Assembly: GCA_002695025.1 (NCBI GenBank)
Contig: NZNV01000025.1
Coordinates: 1 to 64,000, forward strand
Direction: 5' to 3'
DNA length: 64,000 nt
DNA from: Owenweeksia sp.
GTDB taxonomy: Bacteria; Bacteroidota; Bacteroidia; Flavobacteriales; Schleiferiaceae
Shown here: positions 43,941-47,188 of the stretch, piece after piece
How the letters are laid out: each line of letters begins with the position of its first letter
How positions within the stretch are numbered: the first letter of the stretch is position 1
The notes under the pieces: model-generated
What the model was told of the DNA's origin: nothing
What the model saw: only the letters and a program-made list of their open reading frames with translations
Databases searched by the model: none
Program-made: the position numbers and the translations under genes

Positions 43941-44807
43941 GTGGCAAAAAGTTCAGAACTCATATTGAATAAAGACGGCAGTCTATACCATTTGGCTCTT
44001 CGCAAGGGTGAAGTAGCAGAAAAGATCATTACGGTAGGCGATCCCGATAGGGTAAGTGAAGTTTCCAGACATTTTGACCGAATAGAGGTGGAGCGCAAGG
44101 CCCGTGAATTTGTAAGCTGTACCGGAACATTGAACGGAGAACGGCTCAGTGTGATCTCCACGGGTATAGGAACGGATAATGTGGATATTGTAATGAATGA
44201 GTTGCACAGCTTGTTCCATATCGACCTGCGTACAGGAGAACCCCTTGATACAACAACCAAACTTACTTTTCTCAGGTTGGGTACCAGCGGTACCATCCGT
44301 GAAAATATCCCGGTAGATTCCATTCTCGCCTCGGAAGCCGCCCTGGGTTTTGACGGTCTTTTGCACTTTTACCAGTATGATATCGGTGAAGAGGAGGTAA
44401 GGAAATTAATGGAAACCAAACCGGCCCTTAAAGATCTTCCCAGACCCTACCTGGCTTTTGGTGATGCGGATATGCTGGAGCACTTTAAAGCTTGCTACAA
44501 TCACCAGGGGGTTACCGTTACAGCCCCGGGTTTTTACGCTCCACAAGGCCGGCAGGTAAATATTCCTCCCCGCCTGATCAACTTTACCGGGATTTTAGGA
44601 GAATCTGAAGTGGCGGGTATACCCGTTACCAATATTGAAATGGAAACAGCCGGGATCTATGGTCTGGCGTCCGTTCTCGGACATCGCGCTTTGTCGGTAT
44701 CCGCAATACTGGCCAACCGGATAAGCGGTGAGTTTTCCAGTACCCCGATCAAGACCGTAGAACGCATGATCGATCTTTCGCTTGAAAAGCTTACCGGGCT
44801 ACGTTAA
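43941..44807 (+). CDS. Nucleoside phosphorylase (uridine phosphorylase-like)
   Basis: 288 aa from GTG 43941. It belongs to the PNP/UDP family: [20 protein letters not shown] (phosphate site), [28 protein letters not shown], and the nucleoside-site segment [19 protein letters not shown] with the conserved Glu-Met-Glu. It splits a nucleoside with phosphate for pyrimidine or purine salvage; uridine is the best guess. The last 17 nt overlap the 3' end of the convergent rny gene. Confidence 0.91.
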
Positions 44808-46323
44808 CAGCCCTGGTTTCACGGATGACGGTGATCTTAACCTGACCGGGATAGGTCATTTCATTCTGGATCTTCTGGCTGATATCAAAGGAAATCTTGG
44901 CAGCATCGGCATCATTAACCTTTTCACAATCCACCATTACCCGTAACTCACGTCCAGCCTGAACAGCGTAGGCCTTGGTAACCCCGGAATGGCCCATCGC
45001 CAGGTTTTCCAGGTCTTTGAGGCGTTGGATATAAGATTCGGCAATTTGCCTGCGTGCCCCGGGACGTGCTCCCGAAATACCGTCACACACCTGTACAATA
45101 GGGGAGATGAGGTTGGTCATTTCGATCTCATCATGGTGGGCACCAATGGCATTACATACTTCGGGTTTCTCACCGTATTTTTCGGCCCATTGCATACCCA
45201 GAATGGCGTGTGGCAATTCACTTTCTTCGCTGGGCACCTTACCAATGTCATGCAACAGTCCGGCACGTTTGGCCAGCTTGGCGTTAAGTCCCAACTCAGC
45301 AGCCATAATACCGCAGAGGTTGGCCACTTCACGCGAGTGTTGTAAAAGGTTCTGTCCGTAGGATGAACGGTACTTCATGCGTCCTACGGTTTTCACCAGC
45401 TCGGGGTGAAGTCCGTGGATCCCGAGATCAATGGTGGTACGCTTACCTACGTCAAATATTTCTTCGTCTATTTGTTTGCGGGTTTTGGCTACTACCTCTT
45501 CCACGCGGGCCGGGTGAATACGACCATCGGTTACCAGCTTGTGCAGGGCCAGGCGTGCTATTTCCCTGCGTACCGGATCAAAGCAGGAAAGAATGATGGC
45601 TTCCGGGGTATCATCCACAATAATTTCAACCCCGGTAGCTGATTCCAAAGCCCGGATGTTACGTCCTTCGCGGCCGATAATACGGCCTTTTACATCGTCA
45701 TTTTCAATGTTGAAAACGGATACACTGTTTTCTATAGCCTGTTCGGTAGCTACCCTCTGGATGCTCTGGATCACCACCTTTTTGGCTTCCATGCCGGCAG
45801 TAAGTTTTGCCTCTTCCATGGTAGACTGAATGAAAGCAGCGGCCTCAGTCTTGGCCTCATCTTTCAGTGCAACAAGAAGTTGTTCCTTAGCCTCCTCAGG
45901 GGTAAGTCCTGAGATTACTTCCAATTGCTCCACCTGCTTGCGGTGCATTTTATTCAGTTCATCAGTCTTGCGTGCGTTCAGCTCTAACTGTTGGTTCAGG
46001 TCTTCCTGTGTCTTTTCCAGTTCCTTGGCTTTGCGGTTGTTTTCCTGCAAGCCTTTATTCACCTTGGACTCCTTGTCTTTAAGCTGGTTAAAACGGTCGT
46101 TGAGCTTATTCTCCCTTTTATTGATAACCTTCTCGTGTTCCGTTTTCAATTCCAGGAATTTTTCCTTGGCCTGTAGGATCTTATCCTTCTTAATGGCTTC
46201 GGCTTCTTTTTCAGCCTCCTTAACAATGCCGGATGCCTTTTTCCGTTCCATGGATTTTAAAAGGGCAAAGGCTATTCCTCCACCTACTAAAAAGGCTATA
46301 ATGCTTATAAATATTGTTTCCAT
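44791..46323 (-). CDS. rny: Ribonuclease Y
   Basis: A 510-aa membrane-anchored endoribonuclease initiating mRNA decay. The order is an N-terminal membrane helix ([17 protein letters not shown]), a long Lys/Glu-rich coiled coil (~25-150), a KH domain ([31 protein letters not shown]), then an HD domain with metal site LLHDIGK and GAHHDE. Length is standard. The gene lies directly downstream of the probable 6S RNA; AGGAA just before ATG may aid translation. Confidence 0.97.
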
Positions 46324-46344: not shown

Positions 46345-46513
46345 AAAAAAACCCGCACCTATTCAAACTTTGTCTAAACTCCGTTTAGACAAGACCGGAG
46401 CTTACCGGCTAATTTCGATCTTCCGCTGCAAGGCGGCCTGATCTAGAAAAACCGAGCCAAACTCCTATTATAGTTAGCGTTGAGTTTAGCAAAATTAGTT
46501 GAATCGATGCGGG
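46345..46513 (-). ncRNA. ssrS: Probable 6S RNA
   Basis: A ~169-nt transcript candidate between zapA and rny on the minus strand. The 5' end CCCGCATCGATTC (46513-46501) pairs with the 3' end GAATAGGTGCGGG (46364-46352) over 13 bp with one mismatch, followed by seven T as terminator. Inside there is a second long-range pair CTAAACTC/GAGTTTAG (46489-46482 with 46381-46374), an open region containing TATAATAGG, and an apical hairpin GATC-AGG-CCGC ... GCGG-AA-GATC. A long closed rod with a central bubble is the 6S shape, and zapA neighbours 6S RNA in many bacteria. A -7-like box TATATTTT lies just upstream. Confidence 0.8.
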
Positions 46514-46540
46514 AAAAAATATAGTATGTAAAGAACTTAA

Positions 46541-46831
46541 CTACTTGGTTGCGTTGATAAGAAGCGCTTCTACAGCGCCCAGTTGCTGCCCTATTTCATG
46601 GGCATCCACCAACTCCTTATCCTTGTTTTTTTCTATCCTTGAAGCCAGCTGCAAAGCACACATGGCCAAAAGATCCTGTTTATCCCTAACGGCATAACCC
46701 TCTTCATATTTTTTAAGTATGCCGTCAATGGTCTTGGCTGCAGCCCGTATCTGCTCTTCCTCCTCTCTTCGGATGGTAAGCGGATAAACACGGTCCGCAA
46801 TTGAAACCTTTATTTTAAGATAATCCGACAA
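46541..46831 (-). CDS. zapA: Cell division protein ZapA
   Basis: 96 aa. The start is TTG 46831: an in-frame TGA precedes it directly, and the family N-terminus LKIKVSIADRVYPLTI begins at once. ZapA binds FtsZ and promotes bundling of protofilaments at the division site. The C-terminal half (MCALQLASRIEKNKD...) forms the coiled-coil dimerisation helix. It lies 10 nt downstream of the coiled-coil gene and is followed by 6S RNA and rny. Confidence 0.92.
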   Translation of the reverse strand: MSDYLKIKVSIADRVYPLTIRREEEEQIRAAAKTIDGILKKYEEGYAVRDKQDLLAMCALQLASRIEKNKDKELVDAHEIGQQLGAVEALLINATK

Positions 46832-46841
46832 TCAGTTAGGA

Positions 46842-47132
46842 TTATTCATTTAACAACGCAATACAACGGTCAATTTCCCGCACAAGTGAACTGATCCGGG
46901 CCTTCGCAAGATTGGCATCTTCACCACCTTTTCCAATGCTCTGGGCAACTCGGGCCGTTTTCAACTCCCTTTCCATCTGCGCAAGTTCAGAATTTTTTTG
47001 GTACAATTCTGTTTCCAGTTCACGCACTTTCTGGTTCAGGACCTGATTCTGATCCTTTAGTTCACGGTGAGCACTTAATACCTTTCGGGTAAGTTCTTCA
47101 ATCCGTGCAATGCGCAGCTGTAAATCAGACAT
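46842..47132 (-). CDS. Small coiled-coil protein upstream of zapA
   Basis: 96 aa from ATG 47132; a longer frame upstream is excluded because the promoter lies within it. MSDLQLRIARIEELTRKV is followed by a long coiled coil (~20-75, LKDQNQVLNQKVRELETELYQKN). The conserved C-terminus reads SSLVREIDRCIALLNE. It is commonly found before zapA in Bacteroidota and resembles a ZapB-like or other division-associated coiled coil, though this is only by size and position. It is cotranscribed with zapA. Confidence 0.78.
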   Translation of the reverse strand: MSDLQLRIARIEELTRKVLSAHRELKDQNQVLNQKVRELETELYQKNSELAQMERELKTARVAQSIGKGGEDANLAKARISSLVREIDRCIALLNE

Positions 47133-47157: not shown

Positions 47158-47188
47158 CAAAAGTATGAAGGTGCCGGATCAAAACAAA
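47158..47188 (-). promoter_or_regulatory. Promoter of the coiled-coil/zapA operon
   Basis: On the minus strand TTTG (47188-47185), a 19-nt spacer and TACTTTTG (47165-47158) form an exact Bacteroidota promoter, 25 nt before ATG 47132. Confidence 0.8.

Follow-up and report, generated by a model that had tools for sequence, protein, structure and literature searches.

A diverged 6S RNA between zapA and rny in Owenweeksia, with a predicted release hairpin and a boxA-like motif upstream

Gene order and identity of the element

The window, i.e., the whole stretch of 64,000 nucleotides analyzed here (Owenweeksia sp., assembly GCA_002695025.1, contig NZNV01000025.1), carried on its minus strand, in this order, a small coiled-coil-like ORF, zapA, a 6S RNA element and rny (Table 1). 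One copy of the element was present in the genome. The 6S-Flavo model of Rfam matched 25 of 60 relatives, none above the curated cut-off, and in a first set of 25 loci (the window's included) the element was flanked by rny in all and by zapA in 24. A further 80 loci, fetched via the RNase Y protein, had the same gene order, and zapA was upstream of the element in 103 of the 105 loci, the exceptions being L019 and L069 (the latter locus ends close by). At L078, where 50 nt lay between zapA and rny, the model R1 described below had no match.

The first-pass annotation had proposed a 6S RNA at this site, and that reading is well supported by the Rfam matches, a covarying rod, the gene order and homologs above an Rfam cut-off. 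The check it had suggested, a search with the 6S and 6S-Flavo models, gave a divided answer: both models matched the same strand and span, but both scores were below the curated gathering cut-offs. In a 501-base search, RF01685 (6S-Flavo) scored 58.6 bits against 85 (E = 5.2e-9) and RF00013 (6S) 34.0 bits against 46.4 (E = 2.7e-5). The window RNA is homologous to RF01685, yet not a member by the rule of Rfam. The 85-bit cut-off left out all 25 matched relatives, though their neighbors mark them as 6S, and for sequences unlike those of Flavobacteriaceae it seems overly strict.

From 18 relatives a model, R1, was built. It recovered the RNA at all but one of 82 loci, and 63 of the 81 matched loci had no part in its construction; the 82 were what remained of the 105 loci after identical and similar ones were dropped. 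Across the class, R1 matched 49 of 198 genomes under strict filters. At R1 sites, 10 of 20 tested loci passed the RF01685 cut-off, and L152, found class-wide by R1, passed RF01693 (Bacteroidales-1) at the same site. Thirteen of 94 R1 matches were antisense, weak secondary signals that arise because the rod is nearly palindromic. Of the sets used below, the family set (f1) comprised 15 family loci plus L029, added for its similarity, to which set A1 added L097 and L024; the class set (A4) comprised 46 loci, including L111 and L114 from the window's own order.

Table 1. Features of the zapA–6S–rny locus in the window.
Feature	Positions	Strand	Basis
TACTTTTG, candidate operon promoter, before the coiled-coil-like ORF	47158–47165	−	only TAnnTTTG on the minus strand between 47300 and 6S
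Small coiled-coil-like ORF upstream of zapA	46842–47132	−	sequence and translation only
zapA, cell division protein ZapA, directly upstream of 6S	46541–46831	−	Pfam PF05164, E 4.5e-18
boxA-like GTTCTTTACATA between the zapA stop and 6S, few bases past the stop	46525–46536	−	motif search
6S RNA rod (closing stem, central bubble, apical stem)	46346–46513, approximate ends	−	RF01685 46376–46485; RF00013 46346–46518; covarying rod, 18 relatives; R1 match 46349–46513
Inner closing stem, 5' strand (A), contains CTAAACTC; predicted product-RNA template	46482–46494	−	pairs with 46369–46381; 8-bp core P 0.85–0.86 in free RNA
Central bubble, 5' strand; predicted product-RNA start C46479; contains TATAAT 46472–46467	46466–46481	−	AACTCAAC invariant 18/18
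Central bubble, 3' strand; TGTC invariant 18/18, CYUG at −7-like register	46382–46396	−	alignment of 18 relatives
Alternative local hairpin TTGTCTAAAC-GGA-GTTTAGACAA, 3' bubble	46370–46392	−	10 bp, 100% complementary, GGA loop
Inner closing stem, 3' strand (A'), contains GAGTTTAG; common to both pairings	46369–46381	−	folding, inverted repeats
Outer closing stem, 3' half, then U-run 46345–46351	46352–46367	−	inverted repeat with 46499–46513; helix 1 97.0% of cells paired
rny, RNase Y, directly downstream of 6S	44791–46323	−	Pfam PF12072, E 1.1e-32, plus HD and KH domains

Rod structure and alternative pairings

The 169-nt element folded at −61 kcal/mol (z = −4.98), and none of 200 shuffles was as stable. 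A closing stem, a large central bubble and an apical stem were recovered, with 90.5% of rod cells paired in 18 relatives. Covariance pointing to a different structure had been named as grounds for refutation; the rod was instead borne out, with 74 double-change cells against 25.4 in shuffled alignments and 0 of 500 shuffles reaching the observed number. The 3' half of the outer closing stem and the U-run probably also serve as an intrinsic terminator. The predicted product-RNA start at C46479 was placed by the spacing given in the available text of PMC6847099.

The two pairings claimed for the inner closing stem were present as described, i.e., GAGTTTAG (46381–46374) with CTAAACTC (46489–46482) on the minus strand, and a local hairpin at 46391–46371, to which one extra pair can be added (46392–46370). 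They exclude each other because both use GTTTAG. The hairpin pattern, with three mismatches allowed, occurred once in the 64 kb (shuffle mean 0.02). In the free RNA the long-range stem was predicted at P 0.85–0.86 and the local hairpin at P 0.13. When the predicted product-RNA template was blocked, by masking the bases under product RNAs of three start points and five lengths, the hairpin rose to P 0.73–0.77 in one case and to 0.90–1.0 otherwise, at a cost of 4.5–7.4 kcal/mol, not counting the energy of the hybrid. The same procedure, run on E. coli 6S RNA as a positive control, gave a 9-bp hairpin with a 3-nt loop at nt 132–152 (P 0.86–1.0), which is the one described in the accessible part of PMC8876501. 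An E. coli-type arrangement in the window, in which the 3' bubble and the 3' strand of the opened stem form a hairpin of ∼9 bp, was found by folding only.

In the 18 relatives, 85.1% of the hairpin cells were paired, and no double, compensatory changes occurred in a sequence too conserved to reveal them. The bubble together with A' was more stable than column-permuted bubbles in 16 family RNAs (−7.84 versus −3.04 kcal/mol, 0/400) and in 53 other RNAs of the Flavobacteriales set (−3.69 versus −1.59 kcal/mol, 0/400), with 2/400 in 40 further Bacteroidia RNAs. In these permutations, in the comparison of A' partners that follows and in the decoy tests below, L023, one of the 16 rows of the family, had its anchor in the apical arm; L149 had no anchor in the permutations and decoy tests. 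The partner of A' was CUAAAC beside the loop in the window's family, and UAAACYU further upstream in many other Flavobacteriales. Under template blocking, GAGUUU was paired locally at above 0.5 in 10 of 16, 20 of 63 and 9 of 37 RNAs, i.e., refolding was predicted for some of the wider set only; the measure is lowered because the loop of the 9-bp form takes up two of these six bases. In this test, 2 of 65 and 9 of 46 RNAs were left out. Three of the 18 relatives (L024, L025, and L029) break outer hairpin pairs while TGTC is still invariant, and TGTC may be conserved for another reason.

Other strand exchanges had been overlooked in the first reading. In the 5' arm, GCTAAACTC (46490–46482) can form a 9-bp hairpin with the apical GAGTTTGGC (46464–46456), predicted at P 0.14 in the free RNA and paired in 89.5% of cells in the 18 relatives, and therefore the rod strands appear, in these models, partly interchangeable. 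A second exchange, TAAGCTCCG with CGGAGTTTA, stayed at P ≤0.02 once the template was blocked. In 15 of the 63 other Flavobacteriales RNAs (A3), the freed closing-stem strand favored a 5' partner on template blocking. This preference recalls the bubble-collapse helix of B. subtilis 6S-1; families within a single order may not all share one mode of release.

The evidence above bears on three alternatives to a 6S RNA with an E. coli-like switch. That the element is another structured RNA, or merely a zapA terminator, is hardly credible: the Rfam scores under the cut-offs would allow it, but two 6S models agree on strand and span, the rod covaries, and homologous loci pass RF01685 and RF01693. A more serious contender, though an unlikely one, accepts the 6S RNA and takes the 3'-bubble hairpin as a by-product, the rod fixing the stem strand and polymerase contact fixing TGTC, so that their complementarity is not used in release. 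The lack of double changes, the persistence of TGTC in relatives without its partner, and a pairing that is weaker and differently placed outside the window's family all speak for this; the advantage of bubble plus A' over column-permuted bubbles in both family and order (0/400 each), and a geometry equal to that of the E. coli hairpin, speak against it. Release through a bubble-collapse helix of the B. subtilis kind, or by another exchange such as 5' arm with apical strand, is less probable again. It can draw on the GCTAAACTC/GAGTTTGGC pairing and on the 5' preference of those 15 A3 RNAs, but in each of the 15 folds computed for the window with the template blocked, the freed strand favored the local hairpin, and pairing with the apical partner never rose above 0.02. 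An E. coli-like switch is, on the folding models, the likely arrangement in the window's family; the switch of the original proposal is plausible and of the kind described for E. coli (available text of PMC8876501), but it is a prediction, and its hairpin shows no compensatory changes.

The same proposal had regarded TATAAT in the open region as a possible decoy. The hexamer is present, but on the 5' bubble strand, which is the template side, and it is poorly conserved (4 of 16 family members, 2 of 41 other RNAs of the Flavobacteriales set, 1 of 32 further Bacteroidia RNAs); it was rejected as a decoy and is incidental. On the opposite strand, CYUG lay about where the TTTG of TAnnTTTG would fall if the product RNA starts opposite C46479, the register being set by the 4–5 nt spacing reported for F. 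johnsoniae (PMC6847099, available text). The match to TAnnTTTG in the 3' bubble was nevertheless not significant in the window's family (2.19 of 6, permutation 0.21) or in the further Bacteroidia RNAs (1.93 of 6, 0.26), and marginal in other Flavobacteriales (3.25 of 6, 0.020), so that such a mimic was not upheld. Conservation of UAAACYU in the 3' bubble could just as well reflect its use as an additional partner of A'. Over the whole window TAnnTTTG was not enriched (55 versus 54.4 expected), and its use in promoters is taken from work on other Bacteroidota (PMC6847099, PMC7366714, and PMC9723704, each in the text available).

A boxA-like motif after zapA

Of 36 class-wide loci with zapA upstream, 31 carried a boxA-like motif, CGTTCTTTA, in the zapA–6S gap (searched as G[TC]TC[ATC]T[TA]), against 0 and 1 in the controls. 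In 30 of the 31 it lay within 17 nt of the zapA stop, though the gap spans 16–238 nt. In the Flavobacteriales set, GTTC[ATC]T[TA] occurred in 70 of 80 distinct upstream regions, compared with 1 of 80 reversed and 1 of 80 reverse-complemented; L004, L005, and L078 had no anchor in one motif analysis. In all 10 class-set loci without zapA beside 6S, the genome carried zapA elsewhere, and the 90 nt after it held no such motif, a difference of 31/36 versus 0/10 (Fisher P = 7e-7, uncorrected for relatedness). Two of these 10 loci (L135 and L154) carried the motif before 6S.

An own promoter for 6S was rejected for the window, as TAnnTTTG was absent within 60 nt upstream there and in 79 of 80 regions of the Flavobacteriales set, and in the class set it occurred at this distance in 5 of 10 loci away from zapA versus 0 of 36 beside it.

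The assembly of the window's genome contains no 16S, and rRNA leaders were compared in relatives. A 16S match was obtained in five of six related genomes. Leaders of G005 and G250 fitted the first motif pattern, that of G002 a looser one (GTTCTTA), and those of G039 and G054 showed near variants only, by eye. The motif was thus present in rRNA leaders of relatives from the same family and genus, as GTTCTTTACAATATTG in G005 and GTTCTTAAACATATTG in G002. Genome-wide, AAGTTCTTTACATA with two mismatches gave 32 + 27 matches versus 29 + 22 for the control, no clear excess; the motif alone is therefore unspecific, and position and conservation carry the argument. At L109, L110, and L140 a short inverted repeat, noted by eye, seemed to lie between the motif and 6S, and could be a processing site or boxB-like.

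That GTTCTTTA serves 6S as a promoter element, or zapA as a signal, and is not boxA, is improbable, if somewhat less so than release by another exchange. Its location 15–60 nt before 6S in many loci would fit. Its place, however, tracks the zapA stop (30 of 31 lie 0–17 nt away), whereas the stretch that separates it from 6S grows or shrinks with the gap. All 10 genomes that have 6S elsewhere lack it after zapA, and rRNA leaders of relatives have it. As far as the sequence goes, the motif is likely boxA, shielding untranslated RNA where ribosomes leave, and its pattern suggests antitermination-protected co-transcription of zapA and 6S, with the coiled-coil-like ORF as the likely first gene of the transcript. 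A boxA consensus is established for E. coli and B. subtilis, and E. coli 6S RNA is processed from longer precursors. No report linking boxA with 6S RNA was found in an open-access library, where the one match concerns Hfq and invE by its title, and a term search of the available main text of a Nus-target search (PMC5725501) returned no 6S RNA, ssrS, or Bacteroid-.

Proposed mechanism and comparison with known systems

The element is a diverged 6S RNA of a Flavobacteriales family, and the best explanation of the locus, held with good confidence, is a 6S RNA with E. coli-like hairpin release on a zapA transcript that bears boxA. The analysis itself showed the 6S rod, its gene order, the exclusive pairings with their predicted balance, and a conserved boxA-like motif linked to 6S; polymerase binding, product RNA, refolding, Nus action and co-transcription are what we infer. 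The rod would mimic an open promoter and hold the housekeeping RNA polymerase. Once nucleotides are back, the polymerase would copy the 5' bubble strand, making a product RNA from about C46479, and its synthesis would strip the 5' strand off the inner closing stem. The freed 3' strand could then fold onto the 3' bubble as a 9–10 bp hairpin and help to eject the polymerase, as described for E. coli. The 6S RNA itself would probably be made as the untranslated tail of the zapA transcript, with boxA recruiting a Nus antitermination complex where ribosomes leave, and the transcript ending at the 6S closing stem and U-run.

A wider hypothesis, for which belief and doubt are evenly balanced, is that 6S RNA of Bacteroidia is made under rRNA antitermination: boxA would stand at the end of translation on a transcript from upstream of zapA, and Nus factors would shield 6S. 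Away from zapA, either boxA would stay with 6S or 6S would have its own promoter, and the E. coli-type hairpin would belong to the window's family, with other refoldings in relatives. If true, the RNA that inhibits RNA polymerase globally would be under the same control as rRNA, and would need Nus factors as well as free S10; the boxA-like motif, if functional, would link a polymerase-silencing RNA to the machinery that sustains rRNA transcription. The switch is of a known kind and the boxA link is the newest part. The results also show a 6S RNA that is missed by the Rfam cut-offs in the window's family, and they predict release by an E. coli-type switch in a phylum whose housekeeping sigma factor and promoter are different.

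Among known systems, 6S-Flavo (RF01685; Weinberg et al., 2010, PMC2864571, as far as its text is available) shares with the window the place between zapA and rny, the TAAACTCAAC and GGAGTTT boxes and the apical stem, and the sites matched by R1 coincide with those of RF01685. The window differs in its score (58.6 versus 85, below the cut-off like all 25 matched relatives), its longer 3'-bubble hairpin, and conserved rod ends that lie outside the Rfam model. Bacteroidales-1 6S (RF01693), the type of B. thetaiotaomicron, where 6S and its product RNAs were detected by dRNA-seq (PMC7366714, available text), is connected through L152, where R1 and RF01693 matched the same site. In contrast to the window, 6S of L152 lies away from zapA and has TAnnTTTG upstream, no boxA-like motif and no stable local hairpin.

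B. subtilis 6S-1 is similar in that product-RNA synthesis drives the opening of the inner closing stem, but it forms a bubble-collapse helix and no extended 3'-bubble hairpin during this synthesis; such a hairpin is likewise lacking in A. aeolicus 6S, and an extra one hinders release of 6S-1 (all from the available text of PMC8876501). E. coli 6S (ssrS) also has zapA upstream and gave, by the same folding procedure, a hairpin of 9 bp and a 3-nt loop in which the 3' bubble pairs with the freed stem strand. It differs in sequence, in having fau downstream instead of rny, in its sigma-70 promoters, and in the 41 nt between zapA and ssrS, which hold no boxA-like motif.
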